Assembly: GCA_019163175.1 (NCBI GenBank)
Contig: JAFLKN010000046.1
Span: 1-64,000, forward strand
Direction: 5' to 3'
DNA: 64,000 nucleotides
Source: Prolixibacteraceae bacterium
GTDB taxonomy: Bacteria > Bacteroidota > Bacteroidia > Bacteroidales > Prolixibacteraceae
In this document: positions 199 through 61,270 of the stretch, in pieces
How positions within the stretch are numbered: position 1 is the first letter of the stretch
How the letters are laid out: each line of letters begins with the position of its first letter
Position numbers and translations under genes: made by a program
Notes under the pieces: model-generated
Databases searched by the model: none
Seen by the model: the letters and a program-made list of their open reading frames with translations, nothing else
What the model was told of the DNA's origin: nothing

Positions 199-226
199 CA
201 ATCTGATTGAAAAATTTAACTTGAAT

Positions 227-790
227 ATGATTGGAGAACCCAAATCGAATGAAGAACTTGCCTTTGAATTATTATTTAGGAAGTATTACGTTCTTTTGTG
301 TGGTTTTGCCAATAAATTCATTGCCAACTCAGCCGAATCCGAAGAAATTGTTCAGGAAGTTTTTTTAAGTATCTGGAAGAAAAAGGATCAGCTAAAGCTT
401 GACGAAAAAATAAGACCTTACCTTTTTAAGTCGGTTCAGAATCTGTGCTTCAATTTTTTGGAGCACAGAAAAGTTGTTGATTCCTATTATTCCGTGATAG
501 AGTTGGTGTATAAAAATCAGTTTAATGAGTTCAATACCTACGAATCGGTACTTTATTCTGAATTCCAACAACGTGTTGATCAGGGAATAAACTCATTGCC
601 GGAGCAATGCAGGCTGATATTTAATTTAAGCCGTCAGGAAGGATTAAAATATGCCGAAATTGCTGAACGTCTTGGAATTTCGGTAAAAACAGTTGAAACG
701 CAAATGAGTCGGGCGCTTTCTAAGTTGAAAGTTGAACTTAAAGATTATCTGGTTATCCTTATTGTATGCCTGTTTTTTAGCTCAAACTAA
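227..790 (+). CDS. ECF sigma factor (FecI/SigZ-like, Bacteroidota PUL type)
   Basis: A 187-residue RNA polymerase sigma-70 factor of the extracytoplasmic-function type. Region 2 lies in the N-terminal half (LLFRKYYVLLCGFANKFI, then ESEEIVQEVFLSIWKKK). Region 4 lies at the C-terminus (INSLPEQCRLIFNLS, then YAEIAERLGISVKTVETQM), a helix-turn-helix that would bind the -35 element. I chose the ATG at 227; a TTG at 221 in the same frame would add two residues. The next gene is a FecR-type anti-sigma and the one after is a SusC with an STN domain, so this is the cytoplasmic end of a trans-envelope switch that turns on the following PUL when glycan is bound at the outer membrane. The last 13 residues are unusually hydrophobic (LVILIVCLFFSS), which is odd for a sigma factor. 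Confidence 0.93.
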   Translation: MIGEPKSNEELAFELLFRKYYVLLCGFANKFIANSAESEEIVQEVFLSIWKKKDQLKLDEKIRPYLFKSVQNLCFNFLEHRKVVDSYYSVIELVYKNQFNEFNTYESVLYSEFQQRVDQGINSLPEQCRLIFNLSRQEGLKYAEIAERLGISVKTVETQMSRALSKLKVELKDYLVILIVCLFFSSN

Positions 791-971
791 TTTTTCCGGT
801 ACATAATATCGTTGCCTGAATTTCAGATTCGTGAAAGTTTAATTCAACCAGTCGTTGTAGCAATTACCGATTCTCAGAATTTATTTCGATATCATCCAAA
901 AAAAAAATGTTTTTCGTTTGTCAGGGTAAAAGTTGTTTATCCTGTATTACTTTTTAGAAGAAGGATAACAC

Positions 972-1958: not shown

Positions 1959-1962
1959 AAAA

Positions 1963-1988: not shown

Positions 1989-2041
1989 CGGATAATCAGC
2001 ATGTGATTATATTAATATTTACAAATTAACACGTCAAATTT

Positions 2042-5000
2042 ATGAAAAAAAAACGATGGACTATTCATTGCCGGAGAATTCCGTGCATGAATCAAATTTT
2101 TAGAATTATGAAACTAACTACATTTCTTTTGTTTGTCATGTTTTTTCAGGTTTCAGCAGGTGTTTTCTCACAGAGCAACGGACAATTAAGTCTGAAGGCT
2201 GAGAAAGAATCAGTAAGTCAAATCCTGAGATTAATTGAAGACCAAACAGAATATCGGTTCTTGTATAATAGCAGCAACATTGATGTTGATCGGAAAGCTG
2301 ATATCAATTGTAGCTCGAAAAGTATTGAAGAAGTACTAAAAATGCTTTTCGAAGGTACAGATGTGAAATTTCGGTCTTTTAGCTCTAATTATGTGTTGTT
2401 CACCGAAGAAGAAACCTCACCATCAACATCTCAGCAGGCAAGAGCTATTACAGGCAAGGTGACCGATGCAACCGGAGGAGTACTCCCTGGAGTTTCTGTT
2501 GTGGAAAAAGGTACAACAAACGGAACAATAACTGATTCTGATGGGAACTATTCACTTGCGAACGTTCCTGCAAATGCAATTCTTCAATTTTCATTTGTGG
2601 GGATGAAAACACAGGAAGTTGCTATTTCAGGAAAATCAACCATTAATGTTGTTTTAGTAGAAGAAACAATTGGTATTGAAGAAGTTGTTGCGGTTGGATA
2701 TGGTAATAAAAGTGCACGCAAAGTTTTGACATCTGTTTCAAAGGTCGATACAGAGAAACTTAACAATGCTTCTTATTCTAATATGGGGCAGGCTTTGAGT
2801 GGTATCTCCCCGGGATTGATCCTTAAACAGAGTGGTGGGGGACCCGGAGGTGATGTTCCATCCATTTCTATCAGAGGTGGAGGCGATCCGTTATATGTAA
2901 TCGACGGAGTTACCAGTAATAAAACTGATTTTGCCAGGTTGAGCCCGAGCGATATTGGTAATATTTCGGTACTTAAAGATGCAGGAGCTGCTGCTATTTA
3001 TGGTGCGCGTGCCGCCAATGGAGTTATTTTGATTGAAACAAAAAAAGCACAGGGCAACTCAGTATCATACTCAAACATGTTCAGTTATGCCAGTCTGGCT
3101 CAAAAGAATGAACCCTTATCATCGTACGATTATGCCACATTTAATAATAAGATTGGATCATTGTACGGTTTAGCTGTTTTGCCATGGAGCGAAGAGGCAA
3201 TTAGAAAATTTAAAGATGGATCAGACCCTGTAAACTATCCAAATACAAATTGGATGGATTTAACAGTTGGCGTTGCACCATCGCAGAAGCATAACCTAAG
3301 TGTATCAGGTACCGAAAAATCAATCAAGTATCTGTTCTCACTATCTTTACAGGAACAAAATAGTATGTATAAAGAGCCTGATGTGTTCAAATTACAGAAC
3401 TATTCGGTTTTATCGAAAATTACGAAAGATTTCGGAAAATCAGGATTGGTATTTGATTTTACATTCAGGGGATCAATGCAGAACCACAATTTTGTGCCAT
3501 ATTCATCGTGGGCCATATTTGGACATGCCACCAATAACCTTCCTTATAAAAGAGCTTACGATGATAAAGGAAGGTATATGCAGGTTAATGGCTTTAATAA
3601 CCCTGTTTACGAAATAAGCGGAGATAATGGCTACGACAAGTATAAAGGCAGGAATTTCAATGGTATTGCAAAATTTACCTGGGATGTGCCTTTTGTTAAA
3701 GGCTTGCAATTTGGTCTAGTTGCTAACCAGACACTAAATTTCCTGGCACAAAAAACATGGAAAGCCCAACAGCCCGTGTATAACGACGCTGGTGTGGCAC
3801 AGCCAACTCCTCCAATCGAATTAACTCAGCATAATACGAATTCTAAGGAATACCTTATACAGTCCTATGTAAATTACAAACATGAATTTGGAGTGCACAG
3901 TGTTGATGCTTCATTATTTTATGAACAAAGTGAGTTTTACAATGATTATATGAGAGCATACAGGGAAGGATATATTTCAGATGCAGTTGACCAATTGTTT
4001 GCCGGTCCGAACGTAAATCTTTCAAATACCGGTTATGCCGACCAAGGTGCACGTATGGGGCTTATTGGTCGTTTTTCATACGATTACAAAGATAAATACC
4101 TTTTAGAACATTCATTCAGGTATGACGGTTCCGATCGTTTCCGTAAAGGCGACCGTTTTGGTTATTTCCCTTCGTTGAGTTTAGGTTGGAGGTTCTCTAA
4201 AGAAGGTTTCTTTAGGTCGCTTGTTCCGGAATCAATTGTAAATGATGCAAAGTTAAGATTGTCGTATGGCGAATCGGGTAGAGACGATATTGCACGTTAT
4301 GCATTTTTATCAACATTTCAGCCAGTTGACAAAAGTTATTTTCTTGCCGATCAGTGGGTGACTGGCTACAGGGATAATGGTTTGCCAGCCGGTGATATTA
4401 CCTGGTATACTCAAAAAAGTTATAATGCAGGTATGGAGGTCAGCACGCTTAACAATCGGTTAAAAGGAAGTGTCGATGCATTTTACTACAGAACATCAGG
4501 TCATTTAGGAGCGCCAAAAAGCATTTACTCAACCCCGCTTGGAACATCTTTACCCCAAATTAATAAAGGTGCTGAACGCCGTGGCGGTTATGAATTTAAT
4601 ATAGGCTGGAACGATAAAAAAGGAGATTTTGAATATGGTATCAGTTTCAATTTAACCCATTATGAAAGATTCTGGGAGCTTAATCCGGGTGAATCAGAAT
4701 CTACTTTGAAAAATCCTTGGATGAGATCAACCTATGAATCAAATTATACGACTACAGGGTATAAAAATAGTGGATTCTTCGCTTCAAATGAAGACATTCT
4801 AAAAAGTCCGCAGCGAACCGGAATGGTTGAACTGTTTCAGGGCGACATTAAATTTGTTGATCTTAACGGCGATGGAATAATTGATGGTAACGATCAAACC
4901 CGTTTGGGAATTGGCGGTACACCTGATTATTATTATGGTGTCAACCTGAATGCCTCCTATAAAGGTTTCTACATGTTTGCCGTTATTCAGGGTGCAAGTG

Positions 5001-5404
5001 ATTACGATATGTGGTTAGGCGGACGTTATTCTTATGAGAGTGGTTCAGAAACGCTGACACAACATAACCAAACCGACGTTTGGACTCCGGATAACACCGA
5101 AGCCAGATTTCCAAGGGTAAATCTTTCAGGTACCCGTTCACAAAATACCGGTGTTCGTTCTGAAGTGTTTAAAGTTAACATGGGCTATGTCAGGCTGAAA
5201 AATATTGAAATTGGTTACAATATCAAGAAAGAATGGCTCAATCGTGTTAAGATCGGTGAAGCCCGAGTTTTTGTGGGAGGATCAAACCTTTTTACTTACG
5301 CACCTGGAACACTTGGTATGTACGATCCTGAAACAGGAGATGCAGCAAATTATGCTTATCCTGTTGAGAAGATGTATTCATTTGGTGTAAATCTTAAATT
5401 TTAA
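2042..5404 (+). CDS. SusC-family TonB-dependent outer-membrane transporter with STN signalling domain
   Basis: A 1120-residue outer-membrane beta-barrel that imports oligosaccharides with energy from TonB. A long basic N-terminus precedes the signal peptide (core from M23, FLLFVMFFQVSAGVFS). Next come an STN/secretin-like domain at about 49-108 (SVSQILRLIEDQTEYRFLYN), a carboxypeptidase-like domain at about 135-205 (GKVTDATGGVLPGVSVVEKG), the plug at about 215-335 (IEEVVAVGYG; then VIDGV and AANGVILI) and the barrel, which ends in an aromatic residue (NLKF). The STN domain is what separates signalling transporters from ordinary SusC proteins, and it fits the upstream ECF sigma/FecR pair. SusD follows 13 bases later. 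The start at 2042 is kept because STN-type SusC proteins often have such basic extensions; M23 (2108) is the alternative. Confidence 0.96.
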   Translation: MKKKRWTIHCRRIPCMNQIFRIMKLTTFLLFVMFFQVSAGVFSQSNGQLSLKAEKESVSQILRLIEDQTEYRFLYNSSNIDVDRKADINCSSKSIEEVLKMLFEGTDVKFRSFSSNYVLFTEEETSPSTSQQARAITGKVTDATGGVLPGVSVVEKGTTNGTITDSDGNYSLANVPANAILQFSFVGMKTQEVAISGKSTINVVLVEETIGIEEVVAVGYGNKSARKVLTSVSKVDTEKLNNASYSNMGQALSGISPGLILKQSGGGPGGDVPSISIRGGGDPLYVIDGVTSNKTDFARLSPSDIGNISVLKDAGAAAIYGARAANGVILIETKKAQGNSVSYSNMFSYASLAQKNEPLSSYDYATFNNKIGSLYGLAVLPWSEEAIRKFKDGSDPVNYPNTNWMDLTVGVAPSQKHNLSVSGTEKSIKYLFSLSLQEQNSMYKEPDVFKLQNYSVLSKITKDFGKSGLVFDFTFRGSMQNHNFVPYSSWAIFGHATNNLPYKRAYDDKGRYMQVNGFNNPVYEISGDNGYDKYKGRNFNGIAKFTWDVPFVKGLQFGLVANQTLNFLAQKTWKAQQPVYNDAGVAQPTPPIELTQHNTNSKEYLIQSYVNYKHEFGVHSVDASLFYEQSEFYNDYMRAYREGYISDAVDQLFAGPNVNLSNTGYADQGARMGLIGRFSYDYKDKYLLEHSFRYDGSDRFRKGDRFGYFPSLSLGWRFSKEGFFRSLVPESIVNDAKLRLSYGESGRDDIARYAFLSTFQPVDKSYFLADQWVTGYRDNGLPAGDITWYTQKSYNAGMEVSTLNNRLKGSVDAFYYRTSGHLGAPKSIYSTPLGTSLPQINKGAERRGGYEFNIGWNDKKGDFEYGISFNLTHYERFWELNPGESESTLKNPWMRSTYESNYTTTGYKNSGFFASNEDILKSPQRTGMVELFQGDIKFVDLNGDGIIDGNDQTRLGIGGTPDYYYGVNLNASYKGFYMFAVIQGASDYDMWLGGRYSYESGSETLTQHNQTDVWTPDNTEARFPRVNLSGTRSQNTGVRSEVFKVNMGYVRLKNIEIGYNIKKEWLNRVKIGEARVFVGGSNLFTYAPGTLGMYDPETGDAANYAYPVEKMYSFGVNLKF

Positions 5405-5417
5405 AAATTGAAGAGAA

Positions 5418-7163
5418 ATGAAATTACTAAAAAATTTAATCATAATTGTTGTTTTCGTTATTACAGCGTATAGTTGTAGTGAAGACATACTGGATAAAAC
5501 GCCCCTTGACAAAGTTTCAAGTGCTGATGTTTGGAAAAGCAGGGGATTGATTGAAGCATATCTGTCGGATGTGTACGCGCAAATTATTCCAATGTATAGT
5601 TGGGTAAGTGATTCAGAAGATGACTGGTCAGACGATTTACACACGGATTATGACCGGGCTGTAACTCAGGAAACATTTGATAAATTTTACGATGCCGGTT
5701 GGAATCAATACGGAAAAATAAGGCTTTGCAACCAAGCCATTGAAGGGATGACTGCAACTACAGCACTGGGTGAACAAGAGAAAAAAGAACTGATTGCTGA
5801 AGCCAAAATGCTTCGTGGGATGGTCTATTATAAGTTGGTTACCCGTTTTGGTGGTGTGATGAAAGTAGATAAGGTTTTAACGCCAACCGATAGTCTGAAA
5901 TTGACCCGGGCCTCAGAAAGTGAAATTTACGATTTCATTATCGAGGACTTAACTTTTGCTAAAAACAACATGCCTGATGTTAAGAAAAAAGGCCGTCTGA
6001 ATAAAGCTGCAGCGCATGCCTTTTTAATTCGTGCGTTGTTGCAGGCCAAACGTTTCGATAAGGTGGTTGTCGAAGGAAATGAATTTATCGTAACAAAAAG
6101 TAATTACGGATATAAAATTGATCCTGATTTTGCCGGTGTTTTCAATGATTTTAATAAAGGAACGAATTCGTCGGAAGTAATTTTTATGAGATACGGCACA
6201 AAAACAGGGTTTCCTGATATGATGTCAAGTCCGATGCAATGGAGGTTGCCCTTGTCAACTGGCGAAGGAGATATAAAAGGTACGATTAAAGATTATAAAC
6301 CGAACTTGTACGGCTGGGCTATGTACTATCCAACACAAGACTTTGCTGATGCATTTCTTATGGTTGATGAAGATGGAACAGCAAAGAATTGGTGGGAAAC
6401 AACTTATTGGCAAAAAAATAAAAACAATGGTAAGCTTGCCGATCAGTTTATGTATAAAAACCGTGATAAACGTTTTTACTCTTCATTAATTTACGATGGA
6501 TGTATATACCTTGGCGACACCATTAATATAAGGCCTCCGTACTGGGCATACCGGAAACAGATGGACCGGAAATTGCACCGCGCAATGACTGGTTATACGA
6601 TACGAAAAGGTATGTATAACAATGTTATTGACTGGTCGTGGCCACCACCTGCAGTCGATTATCATTGGCCGTTGATCAGACTTTCTGAAGTTTACCTGAA
6701 CTATGCTGAAGGGCTTATTCGTACAAACAAAAACGCTGAATCATTACCATATATTAATGCAACCCGAACAATTCACGGTGAACTTCCAGCTTTAACATCA
6801 ACAGCCAATATCCTTAAAGATTACAAGCGCGAGAGACGTTGTGAACTTGCTTTTGAAATGTTAAGGTATTGGGATTTGATCAGATGGGCGGAAACAGAAG
6901 GTTTGAGTACTGTTCCGGAGTTGAATCAGGATCCAACCTATATCGATATCAGCGGCGATGGTTCAAAGTATTGTATTATGACTGTAAATGGGAAGTTCGT
7001 GAGTGGTGATATGACCCATTTCAATTCATTGGAAAGCAAAGTTTATAATTTTGGTCCTACATTCCCGGAGAGGGTATTTACTAAAAAACGTTTCCGTTTC
7101 CCTGTACCTCAAAAGGAGATTCTCGAAAACAAAAACTTAACACAAAATCCAGGTTGGGAATAA
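5418..7163 (+). CDS. SusD/RagB-family surface glycan-binding lipoprotein
   Basis: A 581-residue lipoprotein with a lipobox ending in Cys20 (ITAYSC). The usual SusD layout is visible: an N-terminal part with helical TPR-like elements (EAKMLRGMVYYKLVTRFGG is the classic RA.YY.L...GGV motif) and the C-terminal RagB/SusD signature (RRCELAFEMLRYWDLIRWAE), ending ENKNLTQNPGWE as most members do. It caps the neighbouring SusC barrel and captures glycan at the cell surface. The gene lies 13 bases after susC and is certainly co-transcribed. Confidence 0.96.
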   Translation: MKLLKNLIIIVVFVITAYSCSEDILDKTPLDKVSSADVWKSRGLIEAYLSDVYAQIIPMYSWVSDSEDDWSDDLHTDYDRAVTQETFDKFYDAGWNQYGKIRLCNQAIEGMTATTALGEQEKKELIAEAKMLRGMVYYKLVTRFGGVMKVDKVLTPTDSLKLTRASESEIYDFIIEDLTFAKNNMPDVKKKGRLNKAAAHAFLIRALLQAKRFDKVVVEGNEFIVTKSNYGYKIDPDFAGVFNDFNKGTNSSEVIFMRYGTKTGFPDMMSSPMQWRLPLSTGEGDIKGTIKDYKPNLYGWAMYYPTQDFADAFLMVDEDGTAKNWWETTYWQKNKNNGKLADQFMYKNRDKRFYSSLIYDGCIYLGDTINIRPPYWAYRKQMDRKLHRAMTGYTIRKGMYNNVIDWSWPPPAVDYHWPLIRLSEVYLNYAEGLIRTNKNAESLPYINATRTIHGELPALTSTANILKDYKRERRCELAFEMLRYWDLIRWAETEGLSTVPELNQDPTYIDISGDGSKYCIMTVNGKFVSGDMTHFNSLESKVYNFGPTFPERVFTKKRFRFPVPQKEILENKNLTQNPGWE

Positions 7164-7179: not shown

Positions 7180-7644
7180 ATGAAAAAGACATTAATATAT
7201 TTATTCACAGTTTTGATTACTGCATTCGTCTTTAGTTCCTGTAGAATGGGATTAGATGAGTTGCCGGTATTTCAGGATGCCAAAATGACAAATTTCTGGT
7301 TCGAACATCGGGAAGTTGTAAAAAAAACCTACTCTAACGGGCAACAGTATGAAGTGGTAGTTTTCACTGACATCAAAGCTGCCTGCACATTTAGTATCGT
7401 TAGCGAAACAGCTGATATGGCTGATTGTAAGGTTACAATCAACAAAGCGAAAGTTACCAAAACAATTGATCTGGCTAATATTGTTGGCAAAGCGACTATT
7501 TCAACTGCTGCCAGTGTTCAGCCTGTTGCTTCTGCACCTGTGTTAGGAGTTCCCGGCAATTTTAGCAGCCAGGTTTCCTATCTGGTAACTGCTGCTGATA
7601 ATAAAACTGTAAAAACATACAAAGTTACCGTGGTCATTCAATAA
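7180..7644 (+). CDS. Small PUL lipoprotein, DUF5018-related type
   Basis: A 154-residue lipoprotein with a lipobox at FVFSSC and no enzyme motif. The N-terminus (RMGLDELPVFQDAKMTNFWFEHRE) and the end (VTAADNKTVKTYKVTVVI) resemble small Bacteroidota proteins annotated as DUF5018-related, which usually sit directly after SusD. The body is predicted mostly beta, probably one Ig-like sandwich. By position it replaces SusE/SusF as an extra surface glycan-binding or spacer protein, but I see no direct evidence of binding. It is 16 bases after susD and is followed by a strong terminator, so it closes the susCD unit. Confidence 0.7.
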   Translation: MKKTLIYLFTVLITAFVFSSCRMGLDELPVFQDAKMTNFWFEHREVVKKTYSNGQQYEVVVFTDIKAACTFSIVSETADMADCKVTINKAKVTKTIDLANIVGKATISTAASVQPVASAPVLGVPGNFSSQVSYLVTAADNKTVKTYKVTVVIQ

Positions 7645-7753: not shown

Positions 7754-8560
7754 ATGAAACAAAAGTATTTTATCATCTTTATCAGCATACTTCTTGCTAT
7801 CGCCAATTTAGTTTGCGGACAAGCAGTTCAGAAAGAGTTTAAATATGAACGCAGGATGATGGATAAAAAGCTATTGTATTCAGACAGCACCGCATTCATC
7901 TTAGCGTTTGGCCAGTCGAATTCGGCCAATCATGGGCAGGGTAGTTACGAATGCCACAATCAGGTGTTCAATTATTTTAACGGAGATTTGTATCAGGCAA
8001 AAGAACCCCTTTTGGGCGCAAGTGGAAATGGGTGCAGCGTTTGGACCCGATTGGCTGATTTATTGATCGATCAGCATCGCTATAAAAGAGTAATCATTAT
8101 TCCTGTTGGAATTGGCTCATCAACTGTTGAATGTTGGAGCGAAGGAAACTGCAACAAAAAGCTTCAGGAAGCATTGCAGTTTATAAAAAATGATTCGATT
8201 TGGGTAACGCACATCGTGTGGCATCAGGGCGAATCTGATAACATAGAAAACACTCCGAAAGAAATATATAAGAAAAAATTAGCTGAAGTTTTAAGGCAAA
8301 TCAGAGCATACAGGATTACTGCTCCTTTTTACGTCTGTACCGCAACTTATCATCCTTCAATCACACAAAAATGGAATGGTATTGATACAGCAATTCAAAG
8401 AGCACAGCAGGAGTTTATCCTCGAAAACGATGGAGTTCTGGCAGGCCCCAATACCGACCTTATAGATTTGGCCGCCGACCGCTACGATGGCGTACATTTT
8501 TCGGAAAGAGGGCTGGATAAATTTGCCCGGGAATTATTTAATTGTATTGTGAAAAACTAA
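7754..8560 (+). CDS. Secreted SGNH hydrolase, SASA / carbohydrate-esterase-like
   Basis: A 268-residue protein with an N-terminal signal peptide (FIIFISILLAIANLVCG). It has the sialate-O-acetylesterase/CE6-like version of the SGNH fold: block I FGQSN with nucleophile Ser55, then WHQGESDN (block III/V-like, conserved in SASA proteins), and a terminal DGVHFS with Asp245 and His248 completing the triad. Members remove O-acetyl groups from plant polysaccharides or sialic acids. In this locus an O-acetylated pectic or arabinogalactan-like glycan is the likelier substrate, because no sialidase or sialic-acid catabolic gene is present. It follows a terminator, so it either has its own promoter or depends on readthrough. 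Confidence 0.82.
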   Translation: MKQKYFIIFISILLAIANLVCGQAVQKEFKYERRMMDKKLLYSDSTAFILAFGQSNSANHGQGSYECHNQVFNYFNGDLYQAKEPLLGASGNGCSVWTRLADLLIDQHRYKRVIIIPVGIGSSTVECWSEGNCNKKLQEALQFIKNDSIWVTHIVWHQGESDNIENTPKEIYKKKLAEVLRQIRAYRITAPFYVCTATYHPSITQKWNGIDTAIQRAQQEFILENDGVLAGPNTDLIDLAADRYDGVHFSERGLDKFARELFNCIVKN

Positions 8561-8703: not shown

Positions 8704-9027
8704 ATGAGACGAATTGGAATGGCTATAAGGATTAAACCTGAATGTATTGAAGATTATATTTCTCTTCACAAAAATCCAACGAATGAGCTTTTTGTTGCTC
8801 TTGAAAAATCAAATATCAGAAACAATACGGTATTTCATGTTGAAGATATTTTATTTAACTATTTTGAATATCATGGGACTGATTTTGATGCTGATTGGAT
8901 AAAATATACCGAATCAAAAATCGTAAGTAAGATGTTTGCGAAAATGAGAGGGTTTTTCTTACCCGTCGGAGAAAATTTTCCAAAGACCGGATGGACAATA
9001 ATGAATGAAGTTTTCAGAAAAGATTAA
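8704..9027 (+). CDS. L-rhamnose mutarotase family protein (RhaM/DUF718), divergent
   Basis: A 107-residue cytoplasmic protein of the RhaM/YiiL family, which interconverts alpha and beta anomers of a free 6-deoxyhexose before catabolism. From memory of the E. coli protein, Tyr18 and His22 line up at the same numbers (IEDYISLH), as does the PxNPE-like NPTNEL segment. The paired tryptophans in the C-terminal half of E. coli RhaM are replaced (SKMFAKM here), so substrate preference may differ. Relatives of this family have also been assigned to L-fucose, and the next gene is a GH95 fucosidase-type enzyme. The stop codon overlaps the GH95 start by one base (TAATG), indicating translational coupling and a shared role. 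Confidence 0.8.
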   Translation: MRRIGMAIRIKPECIEDYISLHKNPTNELFVALEKSNIRNNTVFHVEDILFNYFEYHGTDFDADWIKYTESKIVSKMFAKMRGFFLPVGENFPKTGWTIMNEVFRKD

Positions 9028-13425: not shown

Positions 13426-13441
13426 CATGCAAAGCGTAAAT

Positions 13442-23560: not shown

Positions 23561-23593
23561 TTGCAAAAAGTATTTAGTAACAATTATTACTTT

Positions 23594-23601
23594 CAAAGGT
23601 A
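23594..23601 (-). promoter_or_regulatory. -7 promoter element of the HTCS gene
   Basis: On the minus strand TACCTTTG fits TAnnTTTG exactly. It predicts a transcript start near 23587, about 27 bases before the ATG at 23560. No clear TTTG is seen about 20 bases further upstream. Confidence 0.55.
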
Positions 23602-27155: not shown

Positions 27156-27173
27156 TTCAAAAAAAGAATTGAT

Positions 27174-28991: not shown

Positions 28992-29023
28992 TCAGATTAT
29001 TAAAGCTTTAATATGTGAATATT

Positions 29024-31753: not shown

Positions 31754-31779
31754 GCTTAAACAGATAAATTTTAACTGAT

Positions 31780-39141: not shown

Positions 39142-39145
39142 CGAC

Positions 39146-52468: not shown

Positions 52469-53344
52469 TCATACTCCGCGTTTCCGATATTCTCCCGGCG
52501 ACATGCCCATCACTTTCCGGAAAACCCGTGAAAAATAGAACTGGTCGTCGAAACCCATTTCGCGGGCAACATCGGCAATCATCCAGCCCGGATTATCGAG
52601 CAGGCGGCAAGCCCGTTGAATTTTTAGCTGGATAAAATAATCGATGGGTGAATGGCCGGTACGGTTGACGAACAGCCGTGAAAAGTGCGAGGCCGACAAA
52701 CTCGTTTCGGCGGCAATTTCGTCCAGTTTTAGTTTTTTAGTCAGGCTTTCGAGCATAAAGTTGATGCTTTGCGCCACTGGATCTTTTTCGCCCGATTCCT
52801 TAATCAACCGGAACTGGCTCAAATGGGTAAACGAAGAAAGTAAATGCGGCAAACAGAGGTTGACATATTCCAAAGTTTCGATACTGAACCCGCGATCGAG
52901 GTTACGGAAAATTTCAGAGAACAGATCGAGGCGGTCGTTGATCCGGGATGTTTTGCCGCGATCGATGGGTTGAATCTGGCAAGCGAACCGCGAATAGATG
53001 CCTGATTTGCTGCCGGAAAAATGAATCCAATAGATCGACCATGGATTGTTTTCATCAGATCGGTATGCATGTGGCATTCCAGCCGGAATAATGAAAAAGT
53101 GATTGGCAGAAATCACATGGGTTGTTTCGTTCAGACGGATTTCCCCTTGTCCATCCAGACAATAAATTAAAATGAATTGGTCGCTTCCCAATGGCCGTTC
53201 CCGAAAATGATGGCGGGCGTGTGGATAATAGCCAATATCGGTGATATAAGAATCTGCAATCAAGGGATTGTTCCCGATTAATGCAAGAATCCGTTCAGGA
53301 ATTACAAAACTGATTTGCCCCGGAAATCCATCTTCTTTTTTCAT
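52469..53344 (-). CDS. AraC-family transcriptional regulator
   Basis: 291 residues from the ATG at 53344; a TTG 27 bases upstream is open but falls in a GC-rich repeat-like element. Residues about 35-150 form an AraC-type cupin (FILIYCLDGQGEIRLNETTHV, then HFFIIPAGMPHAYR), a sugar-binding fold. Residues about 190-290 hold two helix-turn-helix motifs (LDEIAAETSLSASHFSRLF; IADVAREMGFDDQFYFSRVFRK), ending MSPGEYRKRG. It resembles soluble rhamnose/arabinose/xylose responders and probably senses an imported monosaccharide. It is divergent from the sugar porter gene, its likely target. Confidence 0.93.
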   Translation of the reverse strand: MKKEDGFPGQISFVIPERILALIGNNPLIADSYITDIGYYPHARHHFRERPLGSDQFILIYCLDGQGEIRLNETTHVISANHFFIIPAGMPHAYRSDENNPWSIYWIHFSGSKSGIYSRFACQIQPIDRGKTSRINDRLDLFSEIFRNLDRGFSIETLEYVNLCLPHLLSSFTHLSQFRLIKESGEKDPVAQSINFMLESLTKKLKLDEIAAETSLSASHFSRLFVNRTGHSPIDYFIQLKIQRACRLLDNPGWMIADVAREMGFDDQFYFSRVFRKVMGMSPGEYRKRGV

Positions 53345-53532
53345 CTTGAAAATAATTAAAGCCCCCTCCAACCTCCCCCGAAGGGTGAGGCTTAAAAAAG
53401 CACGGTCATCATATTTGGATTTATAAACAGCCTACTGTACTGGAAATAATTTTTCACCATCGTTCCATTTGCAAATAGCTGTATTATTAATGTTCAGAAT
53501 TATGGCTTTTCTTTTTACTAATTCTTCGAAAA

Positions 53533-53565: not shown

Positions 53566-53630
53566 TTATAAATACTTTTTTTTATTTATCCAAAAAGATA
53601 AAATAATCCATAAATTCATAAAATCTTTCA

Positions 53631-53682: not shown

Positions 53683-55065
53683 GTGAGCAAATCAAACTTC
53701 AACCGACAATTTATTTTAGGTATCACTCTGGTATCGGCCATGGGCGGATTACTCTTTGGTTACGACTGGGTTGTAATCGGCGGTGCCAAGCCATTCTACG
53801 AACGCTTTTTCGACATTGCCAATTCGCCTTATATGCAGGGTTGGGCTATGAGCAGCGCCCTAATCGGGTGTTTGGTTGGCGCTATGTCATCAGGCTATTT
53901 TTCCGATCGCTTCGGACGTAAGTTACCGCTGATTACCGCTGCCGCACTTTTTACCATTGCAGCAATTGGCACAGGAGCTGTTAACAGTTTTACTCCATTT
54001 ATTATTTACCGCTTGATTGGTGGTCTGGGTATTGGGTTAGCCTCAGCCATTTCGCCCATGTACATTGCCGAGATTTCGCCTGCCGAAATGCGCGGTCGAC
54101 TGGTTTCAATTAACCAGTTAACGATTGTTATTGGTATTTTGGCTGCACAGATCGTGAATTATCTGATTGCAGAACCTGTTCCTGCCGATGCAACCGACGA
54201 ATTTATCCTGAATTCGTGGAACGGGCAAACCGGCTGGCGCTGGATGTTCTGGGCAGGAACGATTCCTGCATTGCTGTTTTTCGTGTTCTCATTTTTTATT
54301 CCTGAAAGTCCACGTTTTTTGGCAAAATCTGGTAATTGGAAACAGGCAAATGCTACGCTTGAACGTATTGGCGGAACTCAATATGCCATTCAGGAGCAAA
54401 AAGAAATAGCAGAAACGCTTCAGGGTACAGATTCGAAAATTGACTGGAAGGTCCTGGGTTCGAAAAAGGTGCGTCCAGTTTTAATCTTGGGTATTGTTTT
54501 GGCTGTTTTCCAGCAATGGTGCGGCATTAACGTGATATTTAATTATGCCGAGGAGATTTTTACTTCAGCCGGCTATTCGGTTGGCGATATGCTTTTTAAT
54601 ATTGTAATTACCGGAACTGTCAACCTCGTGTTTACTTTCCTTGCCATGCGCATGGTCGATAGCTGGGGTCGCCGAAAGCTGATGTTACTGGGTTCAATAG
54701 GTTTGGCAGTTATCTATTTTATGCTAGGAACAAGCTACTTTTTTGAGTTGAAAGGGTTGGCTATTCTGGTGCTGGTTATGGTCGCCATTGCTACATATGC
54801 CATGACATTGGCTCCAATTACCTGGGTGGTCTTGTCTGAAATATTCCCGAACAGTGTTCGCGGGGCAGCTATGGCAATTGCCACCACTGCACTTTGGATT
54901 GCCTGTTTTGTGCTGACTTATACTTTCCCAATCCTGAATAAATTACTGAATGCCAGCGGAACTTTTTGGCTCTATGGGTTAATTTGTTTTTCAGGATTCC
55001 TGTTTATCCTGAAGAAACTTCCTGAAACAAAAGGGAAATCGCTTGAAGAAATTGAGAAAATGTAA
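53683..55065 (+). CDS. MFS sugar porter (sugar:H+ symporter family)
   Basis: 460 residues, GTG start. A twelve-helix inner-membrane transporter of the major facilitator superfamily, sugar-porter branch: GGLLFGYDWVVIGGA in helix 1, the loop motif SDRFGRK at about 77, PESPRFL after helix 6 at about 207, DSWGRRK at about 325 in the second half, and PETKGKS at the end. These motifs are typical of XylE/AraE/GalP-like pentose and hexose symporters. It would carry into the cytoplasm the monosaccharides freed in the periplasm. It is preceded by its own promoter and divergent AraC gene. Confidence 0.94.
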   Translation: MSKSNFNRQFILGITLVSAMGGLLFGYDWVVIGGAKPFYERFFDIANSPYMQGWAMSSALIGCLVGAMSSGYFSDRFGRKLPLITAAALFTIAAIGTGAVNSFTPFIIYRLIGGLGIGLASAISPMYIAEISPAEMRGRLVSINQLTIVIGILAAQIVNYLIAEPVPADATDEFILNSWNGQTGWRWMFWAGTIPALLFFVFSFFIPESPRFLAKSGNWKQANATLERIGGTQYAIQEQKEIAETLQGTDSKIDWKVLGSKKVRPVLILGIVLAVFQQWCGINVIFNYAEEIFTSAGYSVGDMLFNIVITGTVNLVFTFLAMRMVDSWGRRKLMLLGSIGLAVIYFMLGTSYFFELKGLAILVLVMVAIATYAMTLAPITWVVLSEIFPNSVRGAAMAIATTALWIACFVLTYTFPILNKLLNASGTFWLYGLICFSGFLFILKKLPETKGKSLEEIEKM

Positions 55066-55077
55066 AATTTGAAAATT

Positions 55078-55157: not shown

Positions 55158-57989
55158 ATGAAACTAAAATTTGCTTGTATAATCGTTCTTGTATCCATGC
55201 TGGCCGCCTGCCAAAAACCTGCAATTCAGCAAAAAATCGACATCGCCGGAACATGGCAATTCGCTATGGATCCCGAGGACAAAGGTGTTTCGGAAGCCTG
55301 GTTCAATCAGGATTTAAAGGATACCTTGAAATTACCCGGATCGCTCACCTCCAATGGCAAAGGCGATGAAATAACCTTGACCACACCCTGGATTGGGCAG
55401 ATTGTGGATAGCTCGTTTTATAAAAATCCGGAGTATGCGAAATTCCGCCAGCCCGGAAATATTCATATTCCATTTTGGCTGCAGCCGGTAAAATATTACA
55501 AAGGCGCCGCATGGTATCAGAAAGAAGTTACCATTCCTGAAGATTGGAACGGCCAGTTTGTGGGTTTGTTTCTCGAACGTTGCCACTGGGAAAGCCGCCT
55601 ATGGGTCGACGACAAAGAAATGGGCATGCAAAACTCGCTGGGAACTCCACACAAATACGACCTTTCTAAAGTCCTGACTCCCGGCAAACACCGGTTGACA
55701 CTTTGTGTTGACAATCGCGTGAAAGATTTTGATCCGGGTGTTAATTCGCACAGCATTTCAGACCACACACAAAGTAACTGGAACGGGGTAGTGGGGCAAA
55801 TTTACCTCGAGGCGCGTCCGTTGGTGAAGATTCAGAATATTCAGATTTATCCTGATGTTCAGAATAAAAAAATAGCTGTAAAAGTTAAAGTTCAGAACCC
55901 GACTGGTAAAGCAACGTCTGCAAAACTGAATCTGGCAGTGATTGAAAATTCAAAGAACGAATCAGCAAATTTTGAACTTAAAGAAGGCGAAAATCTATTG
56001 GAAATGAGCCTCGAAATGGGTGCCGATGTGAAACTTTGGAACGAATTTCATCCGGACATTTATTCGCTCGAAGCCAGCCTGAAGGATAAAACTTCAGGAT
56101 TAACCGATGTTGCCACAACCACTTTTGGGATGCGCGAAATTAAAACTTCAGGCAAACAAATCCTGATTAACGGCCAGCCAACTTTCCTTCGTGGAACTTT
56201 GGAATGTGCCATTTTTCCCAAAACAGGCTACCCGGCAACCGATTTGGAAGAATGGCTTCGGATTTTCAATGTTTGCCGTGCACATGGGTTGAATCATGTT
56301 CGTTTCCATTCGTGGTGTCCGCCAAAAGCCGCTTTCGACGCAGCCGACCAATTGGGCTTTTACCTGCATGTGGAATGTTCATCATGGGCCAATCAATCAA
56401 CCTCTTTGGGCGATGGAAAACCGTTTGATGCCTATCTGTATGACGAAAGTCAACGCATGGTGGAAGAATACGGAAATCACCCGTCGTTCTGTATGTTGGT
56501 GTACGGCAACGAACCGGGCGGTCGAAATCAGCATCAATTTCTCACCGAATTTGTTAATTTCTGGAAAGAAAAAGATTCACGCTTTATTTATACATCAGGC
56601 GCCGGTTGGCCCAATTTGCCTGTCAACGATTTTTTAAGCGACCCAAAACCACGCATTCAATCGTGGGGCCAAGGTTTGAAAAGCATAATTAATGCCGAGG
56701 CACCACGAACCGATTACGACTGGTCGGAGTACAATTCTTCATTGCCGCAGCCAATTGTGAGTCACGAAATTGGCCAATGGTGTGTTTATCCGAATTTTAA
56801 GGAAATTGCCAAATACGATGGTGTTTTGAAAGCCCGCAACTTCGAGATGTTCAGCGAAACGCTAAAAGATAATGGCATGGCTCAATTAGCCGACAGCTTT
56901 TTGCTTGCCTCCGGAAAATTGCAGGCGCTTTGCTACAAAGCCGATATTGAAGCTGCTTTGCGAACCAAAGATTTTGGCGGATTCCAGTTGCTCGACCTGC
57001 ACGATTTCCCCGGACAGGGAACCGCTTTGGTTGGTGTGCTCGATCCCTTCTGGGGCGAAAAGGGATATGTTTCTCCGGCAGAATATAGTCGTTTCTGTAA
57101 TTCGACAGTAGCATTGGCTCGTCTGAAAAAGATGATTTTTACCAATAACGAAACTTTCGAAGCCGCTGTTGAAGTGGCACATTATGGCGATGGACAAATC
57201 TCGGCCTGTACTCCCGAATGGAAAGTTACCGACAAAACAGGAAACCTGATCCAATCAGGCAAATTCGCCCAAACCGATATTCCGTTGGGAAATGGATTCA
57301 AATTGGGCGATATACAATTTCCTTTAGCCGACATTAAAACTGCCGAAAAAATGGTGCTCGAAGTTTCTGTGAACGGATTGAGCAATAGCTGGGATTTTTG
57401 GGTGTATCCGGCGATAAAAGAAACAATTTCAGGAGATGAAAACATACGGGTTGTTCAGAAATTGGATGCCCAAACAGCACAATTCCTGAATAACGGAGGA
57501 ACTGTTTTACTGAACCTGAAAAAGGGATCATTACCGAAAGAGATGGGTGGCAATGTGGAAATCGGATTCTCAAGCATTTTCTGGAATACTGCATGGACAA
57601 AGGGACAAGCGCCACACACACTCGGTGTACTTGTAAATCCTGCCCATCCTGCATTGGCCGATTTTCCAACCGAATACCACAGCAATTACCAGTGGTGGGA
57701 TGCCATGAGCCATTCAGGAGCAATAAACTTGACCACTTTTCCTGCAGGCCTGAAACCTATTGTTCGGGTTGTTGACGACTGGGTGACCAACCGTCCGCTG
57801 GCCTTGGTTTTCGAAGCTAAAGTTGGCAAAGGCAAAATCCTGGTTTCAGGAGTCGACCTGACTACGGATTTGGACAAACGTCCCGAAGCACAACAACTGC
57901 TTTACAGCCTGAAAAAATATACGACTGGCAACAAGTTTGTTCCAAAAGATGAACTAAAAATTGAAACACTTAAAAAACTTATTAACTAA
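55158..57989 (+). CDS. GH2-family glycoside hydrolase with extra C-terminal domain, lipoprotein (copy 2)
   Basis: 943 residues; lipobox LAAC. It is a clear paralogue of the GH2 at 40790: the same FLRGTLECAIFPKTG, FHSWCPPKAAFDAADQLGFYL, acid/base Glu452 (YGNEPGG), nucleophile Glu537 (SHEIGQW), GGFQLLDLHDFPGQGTALVG and the same C-terminal domain (APHTLGVLVNPAHPALADFPTE, then HSNYQWWD). The N-terminal sugar-binding domain has an insertion of about 30 residues (SFYKNPEYAKFRQPGNIHIP). Two diverged copies in one region suggest related but different substrates or chain positions. It follows the inverted repeat and lies 11 bases before the DUF5107 gene. Confidence 0.9.
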   Translation: MKLKFACIIVLVSMLAACQKPAIQQKIDIAGTWQFAMDPEDKGVSEAWFNQDLKDTLKLPGSLTSNGKGDEITLTTPWIGQIVDSSFYKNPEYAKFRQPGNIHIPFWLQPVKYYKGAAWYQKEVTIPEDWNGQFVGLFLERCHWESRLWVDDKEMGMQNSLGTPHKYDLSKVLTPGKHRLTLCVDNRVKDFDPGVNSHSISDHTQSNWNGVVGQIYLEARPLVKIQNIQIYPDVQNKKIAVKVKVQNPTGKATSAKLNLAVIENSKNESANFELKEGENLLEMSLEMGADVKLWNEFHPDIYSLEASLKDKTSGLTDVATTTFGMREIKTSGKQILINGQPTFLRGTLECAIFPKTGYPATDLEEWLRIFNVCRAHGLNHVRFHSWCPPKAAFDAADQLGFYLHVECSSWANQSTSLGDGKPFDAYLYDESQRMVEEYGNHPSFCMLVYGNEPGGRNQHQFLTEFVNFWKEKDSRFIYTSGAGWPNLPVNDFLSDPKPRIQSWGQGLKSIINAEAPRTDYDWSEYNSSLPQPIVSHEIGQWCVYPNFKEIAKYDGVLKARNFEMFSETLKDNGMAQLADSFLLASGKLQALCYKADIEAALRTKDFGGFQLLDLHDFPGQGTALVGVLDPFWGEKGYVSPAEYSRFCNSTVALARLKKMIFTNNETFEAAVEVAHYGDGQISACTPEWKVTDKTGNLIQSGKFAQTDIPLGNGFKLGDIQFPLADIKTAEKMVLEVSVNGLSNSWDFWVYPAIKETISGDENIRVVQKLDAQTAQFLNNGGTVLLNLKKGSLPKEMGGNVEIGFSSIFWNTAWTKGQAPHTLGVLVNPAHPALADFPTEYHSNYQWWDAMSHSGAINLTTFPAGLKPIVRVVDDWVTNRPLALVFEAKVGKGKILVSGVDLTTDLDKRPEAQQLLYSLKKYTTGNKFVPKDELKIETLKKLIN

Positions 57990-58000
57990 AGTTTTTACCC

Positions 58001-61000
58001 ATGATTAAAATAAATTCTGACTTTCTTAACTCTCCAGCGAGGGTTGAGCAGGGAAAGGCTTGTGCCTGGAATGAAAAAGTTATCATCCCGACTTATGGAA
58101 TCGGGAAGCCTGAAAAAAATCCTATATTTCTGGAAAAGAGGGTTTATCAGGGAAGCAGTGGGGTGGTATATCCGCATCCGGTGATTGAGAAAATTCTCGA
58201 CGAAAAAATTGATCAGGAATGGAATGCCGTGTTTATCGAAAACCAATATCTGCTTATCATGATCCTGCCAGAATTGGGTGGTCGTGTTCAGATGGCTTAC
58301 GATAAAACCAAACAGCGCCATTTTATTTATTACAATCAGGTAATTAAGCCTGCATTGGTTGGGTTAACCGGCCCGTGGATTTCGGGAGGACTCGAATTTA
58401 ACTGGCCACAGCATCACCGTCCATCAACTTACGATGCAGTTGATCATTGCATTGAGGAAAACGCCGATGGAAGTGTAACCGTTTGGTGTAGTGAGGTGGA
58501 ACGCATGTTCCGTACCCGTGGAATGGCTGGTTTTACCTTGCATCCCGACAAAGCTTACCTCGAAATAAAAGCAAAACTATATAATCGCACCAACCATCCG
58601 CAGACTTTCCTGTGGTGGGCCAATCCTGCCGTAAAAGTGAACGACGATTACCAGTCGGTTTTTCCGCCTGATGTGAATGCCGTTTTTGATCACGGCAAAC
58701 GCGATGTTTCGGAGTTTCCAATTGCGAAAGGAACATACTACAAAGTCGATTATTCGCCTGGAACAGATATTTCTCGCTATAAAAATATCCCTGTTCCAAC
58801 TTCGTACATGGCGGTCAATTCGAACTACAATTTTGTTGGAGGTTACGAAAACGACAGCAAAGGCGGTTTGCTGCATGTGGCCAATCACCATGTGTCGCCC
58901 GGCAAGAAACAATGGACTTGGGGACATGGTGATTTTGGCCGTGCCTGGGATCGCAACCTGACCGATGAAGATGGCCCGTACATTGAACTGATGTGCGGTG
59001 TTTATACCGATAATCAACCCGACTTTTCGTGGATCATGCCCGGCGAAGAAAAAGCTTTTAGTCAGTATTTTATGCCTTACCGCGATTTGGGTGTGGTGAA
59101 AAACGCCACCAAAGAAGCAATGGTTAATCTGGAAGTTGAAAACGGAAAAGCAACACTAAAAGCATACACACTTGCCTCCTATCCTGAAGGAAAAGTTGTT
59201 TTAAAAGCTGGCAATTCAATACTTTTAGAAGACACCTTCGATTTTCATCCGGCAACTTCTTATGAAAAGGTTGTTGATATTCAAAATATTGACCCGAAAG
59301 ACCTTTCTATTGCCCTATTAACTTCCGGAGATAAAATTCTGGTCGACTGGAAACCAGAATCGGGCGAACAAAAACCAATTCCGGAGGCCGCCAAAGCCGC
59401 CAAACTTCCAGAAGAAATTGAAAGTAATGAGCAATTATACCTTACAGGACTACATCTGGAACAATATCGGCACGCCACTTACGATCCGCGCGATTATTAT
59501 CTGGAAGCATTAAAGCGTGACCCACAGGACAGTCGTTGCAACAATGCGATGGGTTTATTGCTGTTGCGTCGCGGGCAGTTCGCCAAAGCTGAAGTGTATT
59601 TCAGAAAGGCCATTGAAACGCTGACACAGCGCAATCCGAATCCGATTGATGGTGAGGCGCTGTTTAACCTCGGGCTTACTTTGCGTTTTCTGGGCAAAGA
59701 CGATGAGGCTTTCGATGCCTTTTATAAATCGGTTTGGAACGCCGCATGGATGGACAGTGGCTATTTTCAGCTTGCACGCCTGGCCGCTAAAAAGCAAAAC
59801 TGGGACGAAGCGTTGGAACTCATCGATCGTTCACTGATTCGTAATTGGCACAACCACAAAGCCCGTCAGTTAAAAGTGAGCATTCTTAGGAAACTCGGTA
59901 AAATAGCAGATGCAGAAAAGCTGATTGAAGAATCATTAGCTCTGGATAATTTTAACTTCGGAGTATTATTCGAAAAATATTTACTTAAACCTGACAGCGT
60001 CGCAGACCTGTCAGTGTTAAGACACTTACTCCGAGCCAACATACACACCTACATCGAATTTGCCCTCGATTTTGCGTTTGCCGGATTGTTTGATGAAGCA
60101 ATAGAACTGATCAATATTGGCATCGAAGAACAGAAAGATCGTCCGGTTTATCCATTGTCATTGTATTATAAAGCCTGGTTCGAGTCTCAAAATGGAGACC
60201 AATCGGCTTCAGAAGAAACCTTAAAGGAAGCTGCTAAAACTTGCCCCGATTATTGTTTTCCTAATCATGCTGAAGCTGTAGTGGTTCTGGAATGGGCCAA
60301 GCAACAAAATCCGACAGATTCAAAAGCACCCTATTATTTGGGTAATTTCTGGTACAATGTTCGTAAATACGACGATGCTGTCGCGAATTGGGAATTGTCG
60401 GTAAAACTGGACGATTCGTTTCCAACTGTTCACCGCAATCTGTCGCTGGCCTATTTCAATAAACAAAACGAAGCTCAAAAAGCATTGGCCGAACTCGAAA
60501 AAGCATTTGCACTGGACGAAACCGATTCGCGCATTTTGATGGAATTAGATCAGTTGTACAAACGAATGAGTTTTGCACCAGACCTGCGCCTGAAAAATCT
60601 GGCGAAATATCCGGAATTGGTTGACAACCGCGATGATTTATACCTCGAACGCGCCACTTTATGCAATCAACTTGGACAATTCGAAAAGGCTTTTGAGTTA
60701 ATTATGGCCCGCCAATTCCACCCGTGGGAAGGTGGCGAAGGTAAAGTAACCGGCCAATATGCATTCAGTCTGACTGAATTGGCGAAGAAAGCTATTCAGG
60801 AAAATGAATATGAATTAGCAATTGATCTACTCGAAAAAGCACAGTTTTATCCGGAAAATTTGGGTGAAGGAAAATTGACCGGAGCACAGGAAAATGCCAT
60901 TTTTTATTGGCTCGGAAATGCCTGGTCAGGGTTGGGTGAAAACGAAAAAGCTTGTCAATATTGGGAAATAGCTTCTTCCGGAATAAGTGAACCGGTACCA

Positions 61001-61270
61001 GCCATTTTTTATAACGACCAACAACCAGATACTATTTTCTATCAGGGATTGGCATTGATAAAATTGGGTAAAAACGAAGAAGCGAAAGCCCGTTTTAATA
61101 AACTGATTGATTTTGGGAATGCACATTTAAATGATGAATTTAAACTCGATTATTTTGCCGTTTCGCTGCCCGATTTGCAGATATGGGAAGACGATTTGAC
61201 CAAGAGAAATCGCCAAAATTGTTTGAATTTGATTGGATTGGGTGAGGTAGGTAAAAAGTCGTTAATGTAG
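58001..61270 (+). CDS. Cytoplasmic DUF5107 domain protein with TPR repeats
   Basis: 1089 residues with no signal peptide or membrane segment, so cytoplasmic, unlike every glycosidase around it. Residues about 45-345 match DUF5107 (LLIMILPELGGRVQMAYDK, GPWISGGLEFNWPQHH, WWANPAVKVNDDYQSVFPPD), a beta-sandwich related in look to galactose-mutarotase folds. From about 480 to 1040 come many TPR-type helix pairs (YYLEALKRDPQDSRCNNAMG, EALFNLGLTLRFLGKDDEAF, APYYLGNFWYNVRKYDDAVANW). The function is not established to my knowledge. It is translationally close to GH2-2 and co-transcribed with the sugar porter, so a role with imported sugars or oligosaccharides is likely. Confidence 0.85.
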   Translation: MIKINSDFLNSPARVEQGKACAWNEKVIIPTYGIGKPEKNPIFLEKRVYQGSSGVVYPHPVIEKILDEKIDQEWNAVFIENQYLLIMILPELGGRVQMAYDKTKQRHFIYYNQVIKPALVGLTGPWISGGLEFNWPQHHRPSTYDAVDHCIEENADGSVTVWCSEVERMFRTRGMAGFTLHPDKAYLEIKAKLYNRTNHPQTFLWWANPAVKVNDDYQSVFPPDVNAVFDHGKRDVSEFPIAKGTYYKVDYSPGTDISRYKNIPVPTSYMAVNSNYNFVGGYENDSKGGLLHVANHHVSPGKKQWTWGHGDFGRAWDRNLTDEDGPYIELMCGVYTDNQPDFSWIMPGEEKAFSQYFMPYRDLGVVKNATKEAMVNLEVENGKATLKAYTLASYPEGKVVLKAGNSILLEDTFDFHPATSYEKVVDIQNIDPKDLSIALLTSGDKILVDWKPESGEQKPIPEAAKAAKLPEEIESNEQLYLTGLHLEQYRHATYDPRDYYLEALKRDPQDSRCNNAMGLLLLRRGQFAKAEVYFRKAIETLTQRNPNPIDGEALFNLGLTLRFLGKDDEAFDAFYKSVWNAAWMDSGYFQLARLAAKKQNWDEALELIDRSLIRNWHNHKARQLKVSILRKLGKIADAEKLIEESLALDNFNFGVLFEKYLLKPDSVADLSVLRHLLRANIHTYIEFALDFAFAGLFDEAIELINIGIEEQKDRPVYPLSLYYKAWFESQNGDQSASEETLKEAAKTCPDYCFPNHAEAVVVLEWAKQQNPTDSKAPYYLGNFWYNVRKYDDAVANWELSVKLDDSFPTVHRNLSLAYFNKQNEAQKALAELEKAFALDETDSRILMELDQLYKRMSFAPDLRLKNLAKYPELVDNRDDLYLERATLCNQLGQFEKAFELIMARQFHPWEGGEGKVTGQYAFSLTELAKKAIQENEYELAIDLLEKAQFYPENLGEGKLTGAQENAIFYWLGNAWSGLGENEKACQYWEIASSGISEPVPAIFYNDQQPDTIFYQGLALIKLGKNEEAKARFNKLIDFGNAHLNDEFKLDYFAVSLPDLQIWEDDLTKRNRQNCLNLIGLGEVGKKSLM

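Follow-up and report, generated by a model that had tools for sequence, protein, structure and literature searches.

We analysed a window of 64,000 bases (bases 1–64,000 of the 119,367-base contig JAFLKN010000046.1, assembly GCA_019163175.1) from a Prolixibacteraceae bacterium, whose 5.9-Mb genome is 95.8% complete and has 43 SusD matches. Nearly all of this window is occupied by genes of SusCD-type polysaccharide utilization loci (PULs), and the present study concerns the make-up of this 61-kb region and the glycan that it may serve. We retained 29 genes out of the 43 listed open reading frames; all 29 proteins were scanned with Pfam and 20 of them with NCBIfam. An earlier note on this DNA had described an extracytoplasmic function (ECF) sigma/FecR/STN-SusC unit, a unit controlled by a hybrid two-component system (HTCS), and an AraC-linked porter with GH2 and DUF5107 proteins. 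Every family that it named was found at or near the position assigned to it and reached the Pfam cut-off, although the M6 peptidase did so barely.

The HTCS gene (19448–23596, minus strand) encodes a propeller, HisKA, HATPase, a receiver and an AraC-type helix-turn-helix (HTH) in one chain (Pfam). The genes that follow lie on the plus strand and start with two tandem SusCD pairs (23826–33480), which the earlier note does not mention: SusC2 (23826–27155; Pfam Plug and CarbopepD_reg_2), SusD2 (27174–28991; Pfam), SusC3 (29015–31753; TIGR04056, 653 bits) and SusD3 (31780–33480; Pfam). Next to them, and directly preceding the GH30 genes, is a gene for a protein of 975 amino acids, UNK975 (33507–36434), with no Pfam family above the cut-off. 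GH30a (36568–39141) combines a laminin-G domain, a GH30_4-like catalytic domain and a sorting domain of the type IX secretion system (T9SS), and GH30b (39116–40741) has a GH30_4-like domain with an N-terminus that by eye resembles that of a lipoprotein. The nearest NCBIfam model of GH2a (40790–43516) is the exo-β-1,4-galactosidase BT4151 (810 bits, under the cut-off of 1500). A stretch of four genes comes after GH2a: an M6-type metallopeptidase with an HELFH motif and two F5/8C domains (43527–46397; 22.3 bits versus a cut-off of 22 in Pfam, and 113.9 versus 110.8 for the NCBIfam M6 domain), a GH39-like protein with NEP and LTEW motifs (46413–47882; Pfam, 64.6 bits), a GH42 β-galactosidase-type protein (48036–50114; Pfam, 386.9 bits) and a GH78-like protein (Bac_rhamnosid6H; 50139–52457; Pfam). 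An AraC-type regulator on the minus strand (52469–53371; Pfam) is followed, again on the plus strand, by an XylE-like sugar porter of the major facilitator superfamily (MFS; 53683–55065; TIGR00879, 362 bits, cut-off 237.8), GH2b (55158–57989; nearest model again BT4151, 1239 bits, under the same cut-off of 1500) and a DUF5107-tetratricopeptide repeat (TPR) protein (58001–61270; Pfam) with no signal peptide by eye. To the right, the region is bordered by a Fic protein (61563–62504) and a weak M50B-like protein under the Pfam cut-off (62847–63722).

The ECF/FecR locus lies to the left of these genes and is on the plus strand up to GH95b. It consists of the ECF sigma factor (221–790; Pfam Sigma70_r2/r4), the FecR anti-sigma factor (972–1958; Pfam FecR and FecR_C), SusC1 with an N-terminal STN signalling domain (2042–5404; Pfam STN and Plug; TIGR04056, 793 bits), SusD1 (5418–7163; Pfam SusD_RagB), a DUF5018-related protein (7180–7644; Pfam DUF5018-rel), a SASA-type carbohydrate esterase (7754–8560; Pfam SASA), GH95a (9027–11453; Pfam GH95 and PDB alignments), a GH51 α-L-arabinofuranosidase-type protein (11464–13425; Pfam ASD1_dom and Alpha-L-AF_C) and GH95b, a divergent GH95-like protein with ∼180 additional N-terminal residues (13403–16276; Pfam and PDB). 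A propeller sensor histidine kinase on the minus strand (16287–19397; Pfam) adjoins the full HTCS; having neither a receiver nor an HTH in its chain, it is not itself an HTCS. Because the window begins at base 1 of the contig, the ECF locus may be truncated on its left. Two 20-base copies, 80% alike and 53 bases apart, lie upstream of the ECF gene (12–84); the promoter regions gave no clear repeats.

PDB alignments of the two GH95 proteins placed a His in GH95a, and a Thr in GH95b, at the position of His419 of AfcA, so that GH95a but not GH95b has the His expected of a GH95 α-L-fucosidase. Of the catalytic Asn pair of such enzymes, both have Asp instead of the first (Asn421) and retain the Asn at the Asn423 position. 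The L-galactosidase BACOVA_03438 has Thr370 at the His419 position, and the first catalytic Asn is present in both it and AfcA (PMC4491172); the His/Thr polymorphism in GH95 is described there as suggestive only.

UNK975 and GH30a reached 27.5 and 26.3 bits, respectively, with the NCBIfam model of the T9SS type A sorting domain (TIGR04183, cut-off 23), and Pfam's own model stayed under its cut-off. The AlphaFold model of UNK975 (mean pLDDT 67), which was built from five sequences and is unreliable over the first 200 residues, shows a helical spacer, three β-sandwich domains and the sorting domain. Foldseek matched it to multi-domain proteins with carbohydrate-binding-type sandwiches (GH101, a CBM22 tandem) and to bacterial toxins, namely insecticidal Vip3 and Cry and a binary toxin, with query TM values of 0.06–0.14 overall; these matches give a mere hint of binding-type β-sandwiches. 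UNK975 is probably a T9SS-secreted glycan-binding protein, as judged from its sorting domain and model.

Next, we compared the region with 140 genomes of the family and with an order-level set of 393, the source genome being included in the counts of family and order genomes. UNK975 is present in 6 of the 140 family genomes and marks the core unit, while GH30b as the query matched 49, many of them weakly. We inspected 11 neighbourhoods in eight other genomes (two in G067, three in G094 and one each in G069, G042, G130, G104, G107 and G103). In both places of G067 and in G069 the order is AraC, SusC2, SusD2, SusC3, SusD3, UNK975, GH30a, GH30b, MFS, GH2b, DUF5107, GH2a, save that copy B of G067 lacks GH2b. 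G042 keeps this order through MFS, where its contig ends, and G130 holds a fragment of the unit. SusC2 is 65–93% identical in G022, G067 (two copies), G069 and G042. In G104, an HTCS 63% identical to that of the window lies beside GH30b, another GH30, GH2a and an MFS gene that is cut by a contig end, and the SusCD proteins there are unlike. G107, the three places of G094, and G103 have GH30b in common and otherwise distant matches only. A Persicobacter plasmid carries AraC, MFS, DUF5107, GH2b, GH2a and GH30b within 19 kb, again with unlike SusCD.

From this order, the genes on the HTCS side and those on the AraC side form one unit in relatives, and the AraC-linked genes are not the separate piece for which they had been taken. 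The M6, GH39, GH42 and GH78-like genes are absent from the core stretches of G067, G069, G042 and G130, and hence this stretch of the window looks like an insertion. Relatives of the M6 peptidase (E 1e-60) occur in 11 of the 140 genomes, ten of them matching only its first ∼500 residues, and relatives of the GH39 protein in two of the 140 (E 1e-20) and in three of the 393 order genomes (E 1e-15).

The GH30 proteins had been regarded as possible β-1,6-galactanases, which is the activity of the GH30_5 enzyme Sa16Gal30A (PDB 24td, an endo-β-1,6-galactanase). We compared both with 24td and with the GH30_4 structure 3clw. GH30b scored 350 bits against 3clw and 40 bits against 24td, and GH30a scored 257 bits against 3clw, with 24td not among its 14 matches at E 0.001. 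A Streptomyces GH30 protein, used as a yardstick, gave the reverse pattern (24td, 203 bits; 3clw, 72 bits). In a midpoint-rooted tree of 18 rows, which had no outgroup, lacked subfamilies beyond GH30_4 and GH30_5, and carried 3clw and 24td on long branches, the two GH30_5 rows were split from the other 16 with a support of 100/100, and the window pair fell on the 3clw side. On these scores and this split we rejected a GH30_5 identity for both proteins.

The residues of the galactose-binding −1 site of 24td (Asn216, Glu217, Gln229, Glu320 and Trp350) are retained in both GH30a and GH30b. This match is not diagnostic of GH30_5, because the Asn-Glu pair and the Gln are also common to 3clw. The −2 site (Asp354, Pro355, Trp359) and the distal Trp341 of 24td were read by way of the Streptomyces yardstick: GH30b keeps none of the four residues, and in GH30a they correspond to Glu, a gap, Phe and Phe, respectively. 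These positions are weak criteria, because Asp354 is replaced by Glu and Trp341 is missing in the yardstick too. A β-1,6-endo action of the pair is not supported by the sequences, GH30a being less clearly different than GH30b. 3clw is labelled GH30_4 and uncharacterised and has three extended loops similar to those of 24td; in 24td, Gln229 reads the axial O4 of galactose (PMC13431644). With this Gln kept, we infer that GH30a and GH30b act on β-galactosides. As D-fucose is 6-deoxygalactose, a galactose-shaped −1 site would fit β-fucosidase and β-galactoside action alike.

The loss of GH30_5 bears directly on one candidate substrate. In the reading that both loci serve an arabinogalactan-protein (AGP), the GH30 proteins would act as β-1,6-galactanases and the peptidase would cut the protein core. 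A GH39 GAfase does act on the side chains of gum arabic AGP in Bifidobacterium longum (PMC8939339; PMC10688797), the HELFH motif of the M6 peptidase is intact, and a GH51 protein is present in the window. However, the GH30 pair sides with 3clw, the similarity of the window's GH39 is weak and only to the family in general, and no GH43, GH16, GH79 or GH115 was found by Pfam among the 29 window proteins. B. longum uses an exo-β-1,3-galactanase of GH43_24 on gum arabic AGP (PMC8939339), and the window contains neither of the AGP PUL markers, GH43_24 and GH30_5; for GH43_24 the search was limited to the window. As the absence of GH30_5 removes the main support for AGP, and with it the main basis of the earlier guess at the substrate, we consider this scheme unlikely, AGP being no more than a possible exact target. 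The alternative is that GH30_4, a subfamily with a solved structure that is uncharacterised, may act on substrates of galactose configuration, together with an AraC-MFS-DUF5107 cassette that is widespread.

We traced this cassette through the DUF5107 gene, which has a single match in its own genome at E 1e-100. A scan of the genome collection gave at least 590 confirmed places, the best 80 of which were kept as named loci; among the matches listed, the closest named relatives are from a Bacteroidetes bacterium (88%), Prolixibacteraceae (81%), Mariniphaga (78%) and a Bacteroidota bacterium (74%). Despite this spread, a single paper in the literature searched names the DUF5107 domain. Around the 80 loci, tblastn detected MFS at 76 and AraC at 56. 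Clustering, in which a representative was scanned for only 10 of the unlabelled clusters, found GH2 at 36, aldose-1-epimerase at 21, GH97 at 15, GH95 at 14, GH35 at nine, GH36 at seven, and sulfatase and GH92 at five each. GH97 also includes glucosidases. Any of GH2, GH35, GH36, GH97 or the epimerase occurred in 59 of the 80 loci, the remaining 21 including several short ones, and 12 unselected stretches contained none of the families. Among the loci of at least 20 kb, 39 of 48 had one of these galactosidase families or the epimerase, versus five of 17 other PUL-like stretches (Fisher p 0.0002). The AlphaFold model of the DUF5107 protein has a pLDDT of 78 and is weak at 208–342. The protein matched TPR proteins and 5cd6, a protein from Parabacteroides that is itself uncharacterised and whose match extends to the N-terminal part. 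These matches point to no function, and the comparison touched on the N-terminal domain only slightly.

The recurrence of AraC-MFS-DUF5107 beside galactosidase families, the Gln of GH30_5 kept in the GH30 pair, and the closeness of both GH2 proteins to BT4151 together make up the galactose theme of the region. BT4151 is the exo-β-1,4-galactosidase of the rhamnogalacturonan I (RG-I) locus of Bacteroides thetaiotaomicron (PMC8002723). It could accordingly be argued that the target is RG-I with β-1,4-galactan side chains, for which GH51, GH42 and the GH78-like protein are also at hand; but a Pfam scan of the 29 proteins found no polysaccharide lyase, GH28, GH88/GH105 or GH53, and we regard RG-I as very improbable.

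Next, we looked at the regulatory sequences of the cassette. The 25 AraC-MFS intergenic regions analysed, that of the window included, yielded the motif CGTAAtATnATCCATctt, which had a log-likelihood of 172 versus 70–83 in five single-base shuffles run with fewer starts than the real search. Sites of at least 10 bits were present in 21 of the 25 regions, the exceptions being L079, L085, L088 and L122. The best site in the window, a putative AraC operator (GATAAAATAATCCATAAA; 53597–53614, plus strand), lies between AraC and MFS. It scores 15.1 bits and is not rare alone, a better site having occurred in six of 30 Markov sequences of window length; what speaks for it is its location, together with the sites in the other genomes. 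The motif also lies between AraC and SusC2 in G067 copy A (13.3 bits), G069 (13.3 bits) and G042 (11.4 bits), and is weak in G067 copy B (7.2 bits). We rejected an AraC site before the SusC2 of the window, between HTCS and SusC2, where the best score was 3.9 bits. Most likely, therefore, the SusC operon answers to AraC in G067, G069 and G042 and to the HTCS in the window; the operon of G104 seems likewise to be under its HTCS. It appears that one PUL core is under differing regulators by lineage, AraC in G067, G069 and G042 and HTCS in the window, G022 and G104. Its transporters and enzymes are the same under either regulator, save for G104 with its other SusCD.

No sulfatase was found by Pfam among the window proteins, and this absence had been used as an argument against sulfated glycans. 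That argument is not supported. The genome has 28 PF00884 sulfatase matches on other contigs, so the absence within the window says little, and the units of some close relatives carry sulfatases. In G067 copy B, a PF00884 sulfatase lies between GH30b and MFS with at least two more beyond GH2a; in G042, one lies between GH30b and MFS and two lie upstream. Among the best 80, four named loci have a GH30 near DUF5107, and sulfatases are also present in three of them (L066, L068 and L069; not L078). These facts are what one would expect if the core served a sulfated algal β-galactan with sulfatases encoded elsewhere in the genome. On the other side, the unit has no sulfatase in the window, in G067 copy A or in G069. 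The families that would act on L-Fuc and L-Araf side chains suggest a plant glycan, which also counts against an algal galactan, and we hold this target to be rather unlikely. Contig C1 of G067 carries two GH30_4 double-SusCD units, at 3.73–3.76 Mb and 5.61–5.65 Mb, one with sulfatases and one without.

We then considered whether the ECF locus belongs with this core. In G022, a 76%-complete genome of another species of the genus, one contig carries GH95b (95% identical), HTCS (79%), SusC2, SusD2 and the start of SusC3, with ∼90 bases between GH95b and HTCS; the lone propeller kinase is missing there. Another contig has ECF (78%), FecR (59%), SusC1 (87%), SusD1 (90%) and the first part of the esterase (57%). 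The G022 homologues are mostly 78–96% identical, FecR and the esterase start being at 57–59%. G117 belongs to another genus; there, genes for a protein of family GH88, an orthologue of GH95a (73%), a SASA esterase and an orthologue of GH39 (66%), the last of which is cut by a contig end, lie in the same direction. The GH95b–HTCS adjacency in G022 and the GH95a and GH39 orthologues in one G117 operon support the earlier view that the two loci belong together, and, on few lineages, favour their joint use.

Taken together, we propose that the 61-kb region is a composite PUL for one branched β-galactose-rich heteroglycan, and we put the probability of this reading at about 50%. The galactose-rich branched target suggested in the earlier note is upheld by the galactose theme set out above. 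The AGP, sulfated galactan and RG-I readings overlap with this composite PUL, as each of them names a substrate within it.

Several observations weigh against the composite PUL. The 17 PUL-like stretches with which the DUF5107 loci were compared were non-random, had no length filter and were in some cases halves of one region. Relatives of GH51, GH42 and GH78 were found in none of the 80 DUF5107 loci. β-Fucosidase is the sole activity of GH30_4 found in the literature available (PMC11058611), and PMC6489277 lists one GH30_4 group with EC 3.2.1.38 and a larger group without EC. In G067, G069 and G042 the core had no ECF locus next to it, and therefore the link between the two rests on two related species. 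The 76%-complete draft of G022 yielded no GH95a orthologue (best match 42%), GH39 or M6. G117 gave no match to GH30b, UNK975 or DUF5107 at the limits used, and its pairing of GH95a with GH39 means that the side-chain module occurs also without the core. In G528 (contig C37, where L183 joins L055), ECF (74%) and FecR (57%) homologues lie beside an MFS cassette, and the SusC is 76% identical over its first 63 residues and 33% identical as a whole.

A signalling leader is thus retained in G528 with an unlike SusC barrel. A tie of the ECF locus to the MFS cassette through this genome was weakened in our analysis, as only ECF, FecR and these 63 residues match well.

The points on the ECF locus and on G117, together with the difference in regulators, could also describe two independent PULs for different glycans, adjacent by chance, with the ECF locus directed to a fucosylated and arabinosylated glycan. 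However, the adjacency of GH95b and HTCS is kept in G022, and GH39, tied to GH95a in G117, sits inside the galactan unit of the window; chance adjacency is in our judgement improbable.

The composite PUL would consist of a core (SusC2D2-SusC3D3-UNK975-GH30a-GH30b with GH2a, and MFS-GH2b-DUF5107 with AraC), a left side-chain module (the ECF/FecR locus with GH95a, GH51, GH95b and the esterase) and an inner side-chain module (M6-GH39-GH42-GH78 between GH2a and AraC). UNK975 and GH30a would be delivered to the cell surface via the T9SS, where they may bind and open the glycan, and the SusCD pairs would take in the fragments. GH95, GH51, GH39 and the GH78-like protein are predicted to strip L-Fuc, L-Araf and other side groups, and GH30b, GH2a, GH2b and GH42 to liberate galactose, which the MFS porter may bring inward, where the DUF5107-TPR protein would act. 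Three controls would operate over these genes: ECF/FecR through the STN domain of SusC1, the HTCS for the SusC2 operon, and AraC for the MFS operon, with co-induction expected from a single glycan.

A broader and more tentative proposal, to which we assign less than even odds, is that AraC-MFS-DUF5107 is a phylum-wide cassette for galactose uptake and processing, served by an operator of its own (near nnTAAnATnrTCCATnTT), and that GH30_4 is its β-galactoside-acting partner on sulfated and unsulfated galactans. In the window lineage, the core would then answer to an HTCS rather than to AraC and would have acquired side-chain modules; three different signals of one glycan could thus be read by a single region.

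No described PUL of this make-up was recognised in the parts of the literature that were searched, and the region resembles several known systems in part. With the B. thetaiotaomicron RG-I locus it shares GH2 proteins whose nearest model is BT4151, both under the cut-off, whereas pectin lyases are lacking in the window. The gum arabic AGP pathway of B. longum has in common with it the GH39 family and the idea of side-chain removal, but the window is without GH43_24 and its GH39 is weakly placed. Sa16Gal30A shares with the GH30 pair the catalytic Glu pair, Asn216, Gln229 and Trp350, yet is distant by both score and tree. The closest solved relative of both GH30 proteins is 3clw (BF1510 of Bacteroides fragilis), from which GH30a differs in its extra laminin-G domain and T9SS tail. 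Like other Bacteroidota SusCD PULs with HTCS or ECF/FecR, the region has SusCD pairs, sensor-regulators and clustered glycosidases; it differs from them in having three regulator types over one region, tandem SusCD pairs in the core, a GH30 with a T9SS tail and a T9SS protein of several domains.

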